64,000 bases of DNA from Jaapia argillacea MUCL 33604 (lineage: Eukaryota > Basidiomycota > Agaricomycetes > Jaapiales > Jaapiaceae), in NCBI GenBank assembly GCA_000697665.1, contig KL197710.1:542078-606077 (forward strand), given 5' to 3'. The notes under the pieces were generated by a model that saw nothing but the letters and a program-made list of their open reading frames with translations, did not search any database and was not told where the DNA came from. Made by a program: the position numbers and the translations under genes. This document shows, one piece after another, positions 1 through 8,257 of the stretch; the first letter of the stretch is position 1, and each line of letters starts with the position of its first letter.

Positions 1-890
1 TTACTGATCGTTCGCTCGTGAGTGCACCGTTGCGGAAGTTTGAGGCAGATCTGGGGTTGTTGGAGGGCGGGTTCTTGATGGCAGCCTCGATATGACGTTC
101 CTGCAGGTTGCCCTGCGCCTTTGGAGGTGCGCCTCCTTGGTTTGGCCGAGTGGCATTTCCCGTTGATAACCGCATTGACCTAACCACAGCGTGACTGTTC
201 TTATACATAGGTGCCTTTGGATGGAATTCACCTCGATTTCTTTCTCTAGTATCTGTCGGCCGCGTGTTGCCGGTACTTTCGCTGCGATTCTCACTGATCC
301 TTCGCTCGTGCGTAAACCGTCGCAAAAAATGTAAGTCAGATCTGCTGGTCACAGCGTTGAAGAACGGTTCGGGTTGTTGACAGTAACCTTGATATGGTAT
401 TCTTGTAGGTCGCCCTGACCGATATATAATTGGAGTGGTGAGTTTCAGTGGACGTTTCCCGGCCGTTGATAACCGCGTTGTTGATCTAACCACTATGTAA
501 CTCAATCCTTATAGGTGACTCCCGAACCTTTGATGATAGCCTCGATATGACATTCTTACAGGCTGGTCTGCGCCTTCAGCGTCATGCGATATCATTGAGG
601 TACGCCTCCTTGTCTGGCGGAGTGGAAGTTCCCCTGCATGACAGATCTTGTAGGTGACTCCGAAACCTTTGGGCTTTGTTATCTGTCTGTTATCTATCAG
701 ACACGTGGTGACAGTAGCTTCACTGCGATTTTTGGTTATTGTTCATTCCTGCGTGAACCGTCGCGGAGGTTTGGCGCATTGAAAATTGCCGTTGATAACC
801 GTTTGGTTGATTCAACCACTGCATTATGGGTGACTCGGAGTTCAGAAGGGGAATTTACACCGACAGGTAGCCTCGGAACTCCGTGTGAGT
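1..890. repeat. Diverged tandem-like repeat array
   Basis: Several phrases recur in the same order with many mismatches. A TTGATAACCG word lies near 163, 472 and 791, each time followed by a TGACCTAACCAC-like or GATTCAACCAC-like stretch. GCCTCGATATGAC lies near 84 and 538, each followed by a (T)CTGCGCCTT block, a GGT(G/A)CGCCTCCTTG block and a GGC(C/G)GAGTGG block. A CTTTCGCTGCGATT / CTTCACTGCGATT word lies near 275 and 715. This looks like three or more old, unequal copies of a unit of roughly 300-450 bp that continues off the left edge. No protein is readable through it, and the unit matches no element I recognise. Confidence 0.6.
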
Positions 891-3244: not shown

Positions 3245-3558
3245 TCATAGAGGCTTCTGGTCGGACGTCGTTTTTGTGTTTGCGCTCGGAGTTTCTGAAG
3301 GTTTCACTTCATTTGGAAGTGAATTCTTCGCAGCGGCCTTGCTCTCACTGAGGGGGATGAAGTTCAAACGACCCATGCCATGGGATGACGCATTGACGTA
3401 CAGAGGTGGCCCAAAACGCTCCTGAACAATGGGCTTAAAGATGTACACTCCAGACACAATACCTGACAGAGCTGGTAGGTTATGAAAACTGGGCGGCGGT
3501 CCGACAGCGTACCTGTGAGAGCGGCGATAACGAACTCTGGTCTCGAGTAGAAACGCAT
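3245..3558 (-). CDS. Small single-TM protein, conserved-looking, function unknown
   Basis: There are two exons, 3558-3513 and 3462-3245, joined by a 50-nt intron with a GTACGC donor and CAG acceptor. They give an 87-residue protein. The N-terminus (MRFYSRPEF) is followed by one hydrophobic helix at about residues 9-27 (VIAALTG..VSGVYIF). A hydrophilic Lys/Ser/Thr-rich tail follows, ending in QKPL and containing an ESKAAAKNS stretch. There is no cleavable signal peptide motif. The size and single N-terminal helix would suit an organelle membrane protein, but nothing specifies which membrane. The start is the first ATG of the frame. It lies 172 bp downstream of the first dsRBD gene, on the same strand. 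I do not recognise the family. Confidence 0.55.
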
Positions 3559-3729
3559 GCCAGAAAGAATATTCTCGACCACCAGCAGTTTTCAGCGTTC
3601 AAGGGAAGTGCTGAGAAAAGAGATCTTGGATGCGTTGTCGTTCACACAACTTGAGCAAATTGATGGGATAAAGCGGGATTACGTAATGTAAAGAAATCTG
3701 CAACAGCGAGCCCGATGAAATAATCCACC

Positions 3730-4113
3730 TCAGACGTCGACCCCAAGAGCCTTCAGAGCCTGCTTGGCAGCCTCTTCCTTGGCGACTGCCTTCTGTGTAG
3801 CGGAGGCAGTGCCCTTGGTTTCTCCACTAACTAGCGGTTTCGTCTCTTCAAGGAGCTGTCTGACATCGATATGTAGAAACCAACTCACTCTTGCAAGTCA
3901 TAGTCCAGACTTTGGCGTGAGAGGGACCAGAAGATGCCTCAACCCAACTGAGGCTTTGTACGTTTCCTTGGCCTTGAAGATCTTTGGCACGGTCAGGTGG
4001 TAGCCAGAGAAGGAACAAGAACCGCACGAACAATTATTCAATTCCACGGTATAGCCTGGTCACGGTGTCAATGCGAGCGAAACTATGGGAAGAGGATACG
4101 CACGAGTAGTCAT
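3730..4113 (-). CDS. Single-dsRBD mini-protein, copy A (80 aa)
   Basis: There are four exons: 4113-4104, 4055-4032, 3981-3889 and 3845-3730. All introns are 43-50 nt GT..AG, and the coding length is exactly 81 codons. The whole protein is essentially one double-stranded-RNA-binding motif (Pfam dsrm fold). It has helix 1 with VELNNYLQ (residues 7-14), beta 1 with LSWVE, the minor-groove loop SGPSHAK, beta 2 VWTMTCK, beta 3 with GETKGTA, and the helix-2 N-terminus QKAVAKEEAAKQAL, which carries the KxxAK-type phosphate-contacting lysines. There is no catalytic domain, signal peptide or second domain. Family knowledge: such domains bind A-form RNA duplexes without strong sequence preference. The role of this free-standing domain is unknown; a dsRNA chaperone, a competitor of Dicer, or a partner of another dsRBD protein are all inference. 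Two paralogues follow at 6.4 and 7.9 kb on the same strand. Confidence 0.85.
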
Positions 4114-6372
4114 GATTCAAGAGTGGAACTGTAGCGATGGTGTTGAATTTTCTCGCCGGTACATTCCATCGCCTTTTAAAAGCACTCTCGGCGTCTGAAG
4201 AAAATGCGAAACAAGGTGCCTCAGCCGCTGAAACATGGTCACGCCTGCAATGGTGTCAATGCAAAGCGGGTGAGCGTCCTGCATTCTTGGAGATCATCTC
4301 AGATAATAACGAACCTGTGATGGCACTTTTTTGAGGTGTTGGACGGAGAATTCAGGTGACCATATCGACAGGATCGACAAAGCTGCCTCTAGTATCAAAG
4401 TCACAACAACCTACACCGGTGCGATTATCTCCATTGTTGAAGGCGTACCTTGCATTCAAAGTCAGACTAAATCAAGTTGACCTCCGGCAAATCGGCGGGT
4501 GAGGACCAGAATTCGATTCCAGCGGCAAAACAGGGTTCCCCCAGGCCAAACGCGAGATAGCAGCAGTGTACATCCAATACAAACGAGAGTCCACCGGCTG
4601 ATAATGGGTGGCCGCCTCAGCGGTGTACGGCCCGAAGGAAGGTTCCGCGTCAGGAAAGGGTTGCCCTCAGTCTAGTTGCAATGGACATGAAATGGAGCCC
4701 TTCCGGGGGTTCGATGAGATCACAGATCGGAGGCATTCTGTAACATCAACAAACAGGCATAAAGGAACGATGGGGGATAGCAAGCAAACCAAAGAGGGTA
4801 TCAGGCGGGAGGATATCGCCGCAAAATTCTTGCGGATGGGGGAGTTCTATGAGTAGAACCGATGTAGGAGGGAGGGCATCTTACCATAAATCCGACCGAG
4901 TTAAGGACGGTCACCGAGGGCTAACCCGTCCAAACGAAATACCCATGTATAAGTTCGAGTAGAATAGAGCAATTTGTGACTTGTAACTTGTGCGGAAACG
5001 ACAACGCTCGTATACCCAGAGGCCCTACGAAGGGTGCCGTGTCGACCAGCGCGGTGGTCGAAAATTTGTTGCCGGAGTCAATCCATCCGATCTGATTCAA
5101 AAGGCACCAGTCAGGGTATTTTTTTGGAAGGGATACGGATCAGTGCTGGGATTGAGTTCATATGATAGGATGCGGAGCTTATCCTCACCCCCCAGCGGGG
5201 AAGGATCCGATGTAAGCAGCGCTAGACGCTCTCCAGTGCACTTGAAATGAAGGAACGCATGAGCAAGAATAGTTCAGCCACTACTAGAATCACCAATGTA
5301 GCGGATAAGCATGCTCGTACCTACAAACGGGTAAGTTCGTGTAGGATCTCATAACTCGGATCTGGCGAAAGAAATGAGTAAGACTGGCCATACACTGGGG
5401 GGATGCGATTTCAAAGCTGAGAACACTGTGGGAGTGCATGAGTTGTTCAAATCCCCGTAGAGAACCGCTAGAAACGGCGAAAGGAGCGAAGAGCAAGCTA
5501 TTTGTGTCCGTTCGGAGGGATCGTGGGCGCCTCACCTGATGAAGTACAGCTTGTCAGTACACAGGGTCTATCACGTTCCTTCCAAGGAATGGGAAAGAAT
5601 TGATGGGGATGAGCATGGAACCCTCAACACTTACGATGTCCCGCTGTTCCTAAATTTACCCTGCATCGTACGTACCATTTCGCGGGTTTTGCTGCTCGAT
5701 ATTATGTGACGCTCACGCAAAATGAGTGGATCAACGTAGCTTGAGGATGCCCGTAGACTAGAGACCACATCAACGCATACCATGACTCACTGAGAAGCGG
5801 CCAGAGCAACGGAAAACAAGCATAGCAGAAGCTTGGCAGAAGGTTGGGGCTTATGTAATATTATGGTTGGAGGACAGTCAAAACCAAAACCATTAAACTC
5901 AATCGACCCCGGGCCTGCCAAACTCGGAGCGCTAGACCGCCCCCAATACCTAACGGACCCTCCGGTCGACGAATGAGCTGCGGCGTTCGGGGGTACATCA
6001 GCCGGTGCAGTCTGCGCAACCATCAATCGATGGGGCGTCAATTAATGTGAACTAGTACTTAGTATTAGTCTGGCACTTCCAGCGATCCGATTTCGCGGGA
6101 ATAGGGTAAGGGTGAAATGATGATGGACGAAGCCCTGGCGAAAGGAGAGACAATAATGATTGATGGTGATGACTAGTAGCAGGTAATTACTGAAAAGTTC
6201 AACCGCGACAGGATATCACGTCAGCCCCCACGACCAGCGCAACAGATAGATGACGATGATAGGGCTGCATCGGCGGGATTATGAGGATTGTGGCATCCAA
6301 GCGGCCTGCACTGAGTGCGAACATAGAATATTGGAGATTGGAACATGAAGAACGCGGAGACTGGAGCCCAAG
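4114..6372. other. Spacer between dsRBD copies A and B, no supported gene
   Basis: About 2.2 kb lie upstream of copy A. I searched both strands for the LNN-x-LQ, GPxH and KxxAK landmarks of the neighbouring dsRBD genes and found no further intact copy. Short open frames exist, for example a minus-strand frame at 5787-6041 coding 84 residues, but none has a recognisable domain. Confidence 0.4.
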
Positions 6373-6779
6373 CTACTCGGACTCTCCGGTCAAAAACTTC
6401 AGGGCTTCTTTGGCGGCGTCGCTTTTCGCGAGGTGCTTATGGGTACCCGAACCAGTGCCCCTTGGCTCCCCATTTACTAAGAAAATCAGAGTTAGGTATG
6501 GCCACAAACCATGGAGAAGGTCCTCACTTTTGCAAACGCAGATCCACTGTGGTGCATGAGCTAGTCCAGTCGGCCTTTCTTCCCAGGTAAGAGAGGTGAG
6601 CTGTCCCTTCGCCTGGAGAACTGGATGGAATGGAAGATCGTCAATTACGGCAAAGTCAATTCGATGATAATATGAGGCATACAGTTGTTAAGTTCGACTA
6701 TTCCGTCTGAACAACAGATAGCCAGTCAGTTGGGGAGCTTGAGCGAGCAACATTGTTTCGGAGACTCACCGTTAGGCAT
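6373..6779 (-). CDS. Single-dsRBD mini-protein, copy B (76 aa)
   Basis: There are four exons: 6779-6770, 6706-6683, 6620-6528 and 6476-6373, 77 codons in total. Exons 1, 2 and 3 are 10, 24 and 93 nt, exactly the sizes and phases of copy A. The fold elements are IVELNNFLQAKGQ (helix 1), LTWEE (beta 1), TGLAHAPQW (the GPxH-type loop, with Leu in place of Pro), CVCK, NGEPRGTGSG (beta 3 turn) and HKHLAKSDAAKEAL (helix 2 with the conserved Lys pair). This is the most canonical of the three paralogues: the GTGSGTHK turn is intact. The start is the only ATG that joins in phase. It lies 2.26 kb upstream of copy A and 1.1 kb downstream of copy C. The protein is probably a soluble dsRNA-binding protein; its partner is unknown. 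Confidence 0.85.
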
Positions 6780-7892
6780 TCTCTTCCATTTGAGAAAACC
6801 AAGGAATTCTGATGAGGTTTATATTCGAGAGCGACATGTTGCATCCATGTGCATCCTCGGTCGTCACTACGTTTTGTTGGGAGTGAGCGCAGACGTAAAT
6901 GCCAAATTGACAATGTGCTTCTGCAAAGATGATGGACGCCAACGGAGGAGGGAGGACGGAAGTGATCGTGTGAGCGCTGGTGAACGCCTGCCAGAGGCGA
7001 GCGCATCTGGGTCCTCGCAGAACACCAGCGGATGGCGCCACGTCTAAAAGTGTCTGTCGCGATGGGATGGCAATACATGCCGATCATATCAGAAACGAAA
7101 AGGTCGGTGAGTGATTGTACTGACCAAAATACTTCCTGTGTTGGAAAAGGGAGCTCCATCGCTGAAAGGCGAGGAGAACCTTTGGGAAAAACATTTCGCT
7201 GTTATGCGTGGCTGTCCCGCGGCTGGTCTAAGGGCATGACCTCAGCGAGTAGAGCCGAAGCAGTGCGTGTTGCGCCTGTCTCACTTGGATAATGCCTGCA
7301 GCCTCCCAAGGGAAGCGTGAGGTCAGGAACGTGGTTGCAAAAGGCAAGTGTCGCCCTAGCCGATGGCGTCGACGAGGTAGTTTATTCCCGATATTGTCAA
7401 ATTAGAATGCTAACAACCTTGCGAGCAAGGGCGTCCTCGTTGATAAGAGAGTTAGGTACCAAGACAAAGCGAGATGAAGCAAACCAGCGATCTGGCTTAA
7501 AAGTGCTGGCGAAGCCGATATTGATGGACTTAAGAAAGTTGAACCGTCTCAGAACGAACAATGTGCTCCAGTATAGGGCGGGCCAAAGGATTCTGAGATG
7601 AATGGGGAAAAGGCTTGAAGATGCCATTGAAGGAAGGCCCTGGAAGAGCGAAGAGGAAGAAACTTGCGCGCGAGATTTCAAACTCCGAGAAGGTTTGGGC
7701 ATGGAGTTGAGCATGAAGCAACGGCCGTTGAACCCGATGGTTGTGACACTAACAGTTCGATAACTGTCTGAATCAAAGAGAGAAAGGCTCGGGAGTGATT
7801 ACACAATCGAGAAAAACAAATCTAGCAATAGATGGCGGGAGAGGACTAGTATAGTTGTGACGGGGCTACCGCTCGTCCTCAGGATCCCGTAA
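6780..7892. other. Spacer between dsRBD copies B and C
   Basis: I can defend no gene here. The plus strand at 7177-7292 encodes a short stretch with GKTFRCYAWL followed by ASRAEAVRVA. It superficially resembles the last two strands and helix of a dsRBD, but it lacks an LNN-type helix 1 and a clean splice path, so I do not call it. Confidence 0.35.
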
Positions 7893-8257
7893 TCACCGAT
7901 AGCCATCCGTTGGGACCAAAAGAGCGCTCAGAACTTGACCAGCTGCCACCTCTTTGGCAACATCTTTGTTCCCGGCAGTACCAACTCCATATTGGACCCC
8001 CTTGTCTAGCAAGATGGGCAACTATTGAGAGGGTGGAGGTGCGCAAGCCAGAAGTGATACTTACAATACGCGACGTACGTCCACGTAGGTTTGTGGAGTG
8101 GACCAACCCAGTGTTCCTCCCAAGTGAGATAGTGGGTCTCACCCCGAGCTTGGAGCCAATTGTTAAGTTCCATTCGATTATCTGAGAAACCAGGATGGAA
8201 TGAGCGGAAGTGTACGAAGGGGCCGACTGGGAGGGTCAAAAGGCACTGACGAGACAT
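7893..8257 (-). CDS. Single-dsRBD mini-protein, copy C (78 aa), one intron fewer
   Basis: There are three exons: 8257-8251, 8181-8065 and 8005-7893, 79 codons in total. The 117-nt middle exon equals the sum of exons 2 and 3 of copies A and B (24 + 93), so the intron inside the LNN codon block is absent here. Landmarks are RMELNNWLQARGE (helix 1), LTWEE, VGPLHKPTW (an intact GPxH loop), YVAYYKGVQYGVGTAG (beta 2 to 3) and NKDVAKEVAAGQVLSALL (helix 2). The Cys-Lys pair that ends beta 2 in A and B is replaced by Tyr-Tyr-Lys. An alternative unspliced 5' reading from the same ATG stays open and would add about 22 residues in place of the 69-nt first intron. I prefer the spliced form because it matches the paralogues. 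Confidence 0.8.

Follow-up and report, generated by a model that had tools for sequence, protein, structure and literature searches.

Gene models

The 64,000-nucleotide stretch of the Jaapia argillacea MUCL 33604 genome analyzed here (contig KL197710.1, positions 542,078 to 606,077; hereafter the window, which lies within the contig that we label C2) carries three minus-strand genes. Each encodes one double-stranded RNA (dsRNA)-binding domain (dsRBD) and almost nothing else, as a preliminary description of this DNA had claimed; one of its gene models is corrected below. We call these mini-dsRBD genes W1, W2 and W3, and their products minis. W1 (3730..4113) has exons at 4113-4104, 4055-4032, 3981-3889 and 3830-3730, separated by introns of 48, 50 and 58 nt. 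W2 (6373..6779) encodes 76 amino acids (aa) from exons at 6779-6770, 6706-6683, 6620-6528 and 6476-6373, with introns of 63, 62 and 51 nt. W3 (7893..8257) encodes 78 aa from exons at 8257-8251, 8181-8065 and 8005-7893, with introns of 69 and 59 nt. All introns of the three genes are in phase 1. In the predicted proteins, only 7–8 residues lie upstream of the LNN motif of the dsRBD.

The earlier models of 80, 76 and 78 aa were all reproduced exactly, with GT..AG introns in phase 1, but the W1 product is probably 75 aa long. A spliced-profile alignment places the acceptor of the third W1 intron at 3831 rather than 3846, making the intron 58 rather than 43 nt. With this acceptor a 5-residue insert is gone and the score against the Pfam dsrm model rises from 22.6 to 33.5 bits. 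We replaced the acceptor at 3846 on the strength of the alignment and the higher score, and the intron (3888-3831) most likely ends 15 nt beyond its previously modeled end. The corrected W1 reads CK-I-SGETKG where the aligned stretch of W2 reads CK-I-NGEPRG.

The first exons in the window are only 7–10 nt long and were placed by family resemblance only. W3 contains an internal in-frame ATG (MELNN...) that is a possible alternative start. A branch-like YTRAY motif lies 10–40 nt from the 3' end in five of the eight window introns, with none there in the remaining three.

Domain identity

The identity of the trio as dsRBD genes is secure. In the Pfam PF00035 (dsrm) check that the preliminary description had called for, W2 (43.1 bits, E 6.3e-11), W3 (33.0 bits, E 9.2e-8) and corrected W1 (33.5 bits) all score above the cut-off of 23; W1 as first modeled fell just below it (22.6 bits, E 1.7e-4). 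In corrected W1, W2 and W3 the match starts at position 4 or 5 of the 66-position profile and ends at 65 or 66. These scores are independent of the construction of our own family profile.

We also scanned the window with a leave-out profile of nine relatives that excludes the window genes. It gave exactly three spliced matches, at 83.2, 73.6 and 55.6 bits, which are the three gene loci. The next window match scored 20.6 bits, and the best match in four control sequences (three shuffles and one reversal) scored 21.7 bits. This profile is not wholly independent, because W1 and Pfam dsrm served to find its relatives and the alignment of these relatives included the window genes. A spliced-profile scan for a fourth mini in the window gave nothing over control level. 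A match at C2:565888 was dropped because its 21.3 bits do not exceed the best control score (22.9).

Among solved structures, the family profile aligns with the first dsRBD of PKR (1qu6) from position 2 to position 64 of its 65 (E 2.6e-14 for the whole sequence, 29.6 bits for the best stretch). At E <= 0.01 it matches 41 distinct PDB sequences, all of which bear names of proteins known to carry dsRBDs. We assign the predicted alpha-beta-beta-beta-alpha fold through alignment to solved dsRBDs.

RNA-contact residues

Canonical dsRBDs contact RNA through helix 1, the GPxH loop and the KKxAK motif. Helix 1 and the loop are largely kept in the window trio, in agreement with the earlier description, though not in every detail, and KKxAK is reduced to KxxAK: LNN..LQ, KxxAK and the loop His are present in all three proteins, but the loop Pro in only two (GPSH, GLAH, GPLH). 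We extended the comparison by eye to six free-standing proteins of the same type, the window trio and three encoded on contigs C3, C16 and C29 (see below). LNN, the Gln of LQ and the last basic residue of KxxAK (four Lys, two Arg) are found in all six, and the loop His and the first Lys of KxxAK in five of six each; C3 is without the loop His and C16 without the first Lys. The second Lys of canonical KKxAK is missing in five of six and kept only in C3. Because the contact positions are mostly kept and this second Lys is mostly lost, the minis likely bind dsRNA, perhaps more weakly than PKR does.

The same losses (the second Lys in five of six proteins, the loop His in C3 and the first Lys in C16) would suit a protein-interaction module that uses the dsRBD fold for dimerization and has no real RNA binding, like the third dsRBD of TRBP. 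But RNA-contact positions that are mostly kept are the opposite of what is generally seen in dimerization-only dsRBDs, and of the explanations considered here we regard this as the least probable.

The family across the genome

We searched the 43.7 Mb genome (95 contigs) with single-protein and Pfam queries, followed by spliced scanning of the matched loci; the resulting family counts are lower bounds. Loci elsewhere in the genome are named by contig and approximate position. Domains of the window type (LNNxLQxxG..., the LNN type) occur at at least ten places: the window trio, C16:759k, C29:300k, C3:870k, C8:251k and three on C7. The cluster of three proposed earlier holds insofar as the three window genes are real, but they do not stand alone: three more free-standing genes lie elsewhere (C3, C16 and C29), and dsRBD-kinase fusions are also present.

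Complete free-standing models were obtained for six of the ten, at four loci, with products of 75 (W1), 76 (W2), 78 (W3), 81 (C16), 84 (C29) and 116 aa (C3). Their first exons measure 10 nt in W1, W2 and C29, 7 nt in W3, 19 nt in C16 and 76 nt in C3. The first intron and the intron between beta2 and beta3 are in phase 1 in all six genes. Gene models outside the window partly depend on the chosen splice sites, and the first-intron boundaries of the C16, C29 and C3 genes were chosen by eye. The three window genes belong to an old stand-alone dsRBD family, the predicted genes of which have a short first exon, phase-1 introns and a single dsRBD of about 65 residues.

The C8 member and the three C7 members were not counted as free-standing. 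In the former (locus L038), an open frame of 230 aa contains the LNN-type dsRBD; this frame sits downstream of a 280-aa open reading frame (ORF) without a Pfam match. On C7, one match crosses an in-frame stop, and downstream of another a second stretch looks dsRBD-like by eye. C11 near 372k (locus L025) carries a partial, single-exon LNN-like copy for which no upstream exons were recognized. The partial C11 copy and the C7 copy spanning a stop suggest that copies of the family also decay.

Divergence and selection

The view that this is an old, strongly diverged family is borne out: the window genes share 39–48% amino-acid identity, and synonymous divergence (dS) is high or saturated. W1 and W2 differ at codon positions 1, 2 and 3 in 26, 27 and 50 of 75 codons, respectively. 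Among five minis, NG86 ratios of nonsynonymous to synonymous divergence (dN/dS) are 0.30–0.41 in six of ten pairs, with dS of 1.2–2.4; since dS is near saturation the ratios are rough, and in the other four pairs it is saturated. All frames are open, and the pattern of change fits long-standing purifying selection on the putative proteins.

These data bear on whether the minis are leftovers, that is, remnants of larger dsRBD genes drifting to pseudogenes. The C11 and C7 copies, which suggest that members of the family do die, are in line with this, as are the weak second donor of W1 (GTTCGT) and the three introns without a nearby branch-like motif. However, all six models are open from ATG to stop and share a common intron plan, third-position differences are the commonest between W1 and W2, and the computable dN/dS ratios are 0.30–0.41. 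Paralogs this diverged would hardly remain open without selection, and we consider the leftover explanation very unlikely.

We built a tree from 20 of the 29 spliced matches, each with at least 60 residues, plus four hand-assembled second domains. Nine rows stayed outside it: C1, C11, C7:1435.5k, a noise match and five C17 pieces, two of which re-enter the tree as hand-assembled second domains. W1 pairs with W2 (84/82), and the two genes share one further intron, consistent with this pairing. W3 groups with the C16 gene on another contig, not with W1 or W2, at modest support (83/76). Since W3 pairs with C16, the trio is no fresh tandem array. We rejected a recent tandem duplication for this reason and because of the 39–48% identity and the absence of a gene-covering direct repeat at the settings used. 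A probe for a viral origin, in which W2 alone was compared to viral contigs, returned 52 pattern-matching stretches and no relative.

Paired dsRBDs and kinase fusions

A second dsRBD type occurs in pairs, at three C17 loci, three C23 loci, three near-identical C6 loci and one locus at C2:1008k. Across both types, 25 domains have a modeled intron, and in 23 of them the beta2/beta3 intron occupies the same site, in identical codon and phase. The two domains off this site lie on C7 and C17; the former has its intron in phase 0, probably through a poor local fit, and the latter has a gapped fit.

At five of the six C17 and C23 loci, the dsRBD pair is preceded by exons with kinase motifs (glycine loop, VAVK, HGDLR, DFG and APE). 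These motifs were read by eye, and the upstream part of the sixth locus is unreadable. The five dsRBD-kinase genes (C17 near 712k, 717k and 732k, and C23 near 217k and 221k; loci L014, L017, L019, L021, L028, L033 and L067-L071) have a kinase, then a Pro/Ser-rich linker, then two dsRBDs. The C17:712k model of 642 aa matches the kinase family PF07714 at E 1.3e-40 and dsrm at E 2.2e-14 in two stretches; a rougher model of C23:217k gives E 9.6e-33 and E 1.5e-20, the latter again in two stretches. The first dsRBD is weak at C17:717k (27.2 bits) and C17:732k (36.3 bits) with the family profile (control maximum 22.9), and in the unspliced frame of C17:732k Pfam recognizes the second dsRBD only.

Among the best 60 of 1186 PDB matches, the C17:712k kinase has EGFR as its best solved match, then CTR1 and TNNI3K, with RIPK1 and RAF lower and no eIF2alpha kinase found. 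By these resemblances we label it TK/TKL type, TKL being our own label. The genome has many TKL-like kinases, with 29 matches to one C-lobe query at E <= 1e-5. The C2:1008k gene contains an RNase-III-like stretch whose Pfam score (17.3) is under the cut-off of 35. The C6 genes, near 482k, 488k and 494k (loci L013, L016 and L030), encode two dsRBDs and a Pro-rich N-terminus, the latter seen in L016; these three near-identical neighbors are probably recent tandem duplicates.

TRBP and viral E3 restrain PKR. By analogy, the minis might inhibit or adapt the dsRBD kinases by pairing with the kinase dsRBDs or stripping them of dsRNA. Such a role is favored by the presence in this genome of five kinases with C-terminal dsRBDs and by the phase-1 intron site common to both dsRBD types. 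On the other hand, LNN-type and paired domains are separated in the tree (100/97), none of the five kinase genes shares a contig with the window, and two of the kinases have a weak first dsRBD. As a specific account of what the minis do, we think this unlikely.

RNA interference machinery

We found at least five Piwi (Argonaute) loci and eight loci for RNA-dependent RNA polymerase (RdRP) in the genome. Two loci have paired RNase III domains and are Dicer-like; three more have a single match, one of them under the cut-off. None of the 22 genome dsrm matches at E <= 10 falls at the two Dicer-like loci. Readable Dicer C-terminal pieces, all of them unspliced, gave no dsrm or Dicer_dsRBD match at E <= 0.1, and their best score with the family profile was 17.1 bits, against a control maximum of 22.9.

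This pattern raises the idea that the minis are Dicer helpers, providing in trans a dsRBD that is absent from the Dicers of this fungus, in the way that Dicers elsewhere are assisted by TRBP, Loquacious or plant DRB proteins. Besides the two loci whose readable C-termini have neither a dsRBD match nor an above-control profile score, the idea draws on a survey of 1592 fungal proteomes, in which 1825 Dicers (62.7%) are without both PAZ and dsRBD (PMC12663654). The same survey cautions that absent Dicer domains may be divergent, not lost (PMC12663654), and one Dicer C-terminus here does have a dsRBD-like stretch by eye. Moreover, known helpers have two or more dsRBDs and the minis one, the minis show no linkage to Dicer genes, and the Dicer genes were viewed in unspliced pieces only. 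We give a helper role of this kind a low probability.

Window surroundings

The placement of the trio in accessory DNA, also part of the preliminary description, holds only weakly. None of ten chosen ORFs in the 1–9.6 kb region reaches a Pfam cut-off, but the region includes a likely conserved gene and its GC content is similar to that of its neighbor (0.49–0.52 in 1–10 kb and 0.51–0.54 in 10–24 kb). The gene, probably conserved and PIGBOS1-like, is a small minus-strand ORF at window positions 3245–3598, adjoining W1; its PIGBOS1-like match scores 22.5 bits (cut-off 27), with E 1.3e-4. Window positions 1–820 contain several short, irregularly arranged direct repeats of 25–47 nt with about 68–88% identity; this may be a repetitive stretch that has degraded.

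Proposed role

We prefer, tentatively and with somewhat less than even confidence, a reading in which the minis serve as trans-acting dsRNA binders that tune the proteins using dsRNA. Each mini would contact the duplex with helix 1, the G-P-x-H loop and the basic residues that open helix 2. With no catalytic part and one dsRBD only, it could act only in trans, either by covering dsRNA or by pairing with other dsRBDs. In this way the minis may set the supply of dsRNA to dsRBD enzymes (TKL kinases and RNase-III-like proteins) or to Dicers seemingly without a canonical dsRBD. The likeliest net effect would be that of a competitor or adaptor that shifts the threshold of the response to mycoviral, transposon or antisense RNA up or down. 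We count in favor of this trans-acting role that the same genome has dsRBD-kinase genes together with Argonaute, RdRP and Dicer-like loci. The dsrm and PKR matches, the mostly kept RNA-contact positions, the dN/dS range, the common gene plan at C16, C29 and C3 and the lack of a dsRBD match in the readable Dicer C-terminal pieces count in its favor as well.

Several observations weigh against it. A single dsRBD is a weak dsRNA binder, so a free monomer may compete poorly. The second Lys of KKxAK is lost in five of the six free-standing proteins. The LNN and paired types are split in the tree, on which the free-standing label (five rows) requires three changes; common ligands or partners are therefore not implied by close descent. 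The dsRBD-like stretch at one Dicer C-terminus means that the Dicers here may not lack the domain. Finally, the window has no Piwi, RdRP or RNase III match, and no kinase C-lobe match at E <= 1e-5, so the trio is not linked to a partner gene.

A broader version of the trans-acting role is a dsRNA-sensing pathway built up separately from that of vertebrate PKR, in which TKL kinases with two C-terminal dsRBDs would be the sensors and the dispersed minis, including the window trio, their tunable competitors or adaptors. We put this forward as a doubtful proposal.

Comparison with known systems

The dsRBD is one of the best-known folds that bind RNA, and hypothetical proteins with a single dsRBD are presumably common in agaricomycete databases. 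To our knowledge, fungal dsRNA sensing beyond Dicer cleavage is poorly understood. Among the matches listed from the open-access literature, none describes dsRBD-TKL kinases or a family of free-standing dsRBD proteins in fungi. The occurrence of single-dsRBD genes and dsRBD-kinase fusions in one genome offers concrete candidates for fungal dsRNA sensors and modulators.

The minis resemble the canonical dsRBD (PF00035; the best-scoring solved relative is the first dsRBD of PKR, 1qu6) in their near-complete profile match, GPxH-type loop and basic start of helix 2. They differ in consisting almost entirely of the domain and in the reduction of KKxAK to KxxAK. Like TRBP, PACT, Loquacious and plant DRB proteins, they are small dsRBD proteins without a catalytic part and could work in trans; those proteins have two or three dsRBDs, whereas each window product has one in 75–78 aa. 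Poxvirus E3 joins an N-terminal Z-nucleic-acid domain to its dsRBD, in contrast to the few residues that precede LNN in the window minis.

The closest parallel to the C17 and C23 kinases is PKR; like it, they combine two dsRBDs and an apparently active kinase in one protein. The order is reversed in the fungal genes, where the kinase comes first, and the C17:712k kinase, judged by the best 60 of its 1186 PDB matches, is not of the eIF2alpha-kinase type. A large, expanded TKL set has been described in another basidiomycete, Laccaria bicolor (PMC2838846). The main text of that paper does not contain the terms dsrm, dsRNA or double-stranded (PMC2838846), in contrast to the dsRBD fusion seen here. 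The dsRBD-kinase fusions of J. argillacea may represent an independent origin of the PKR-like domain combination.

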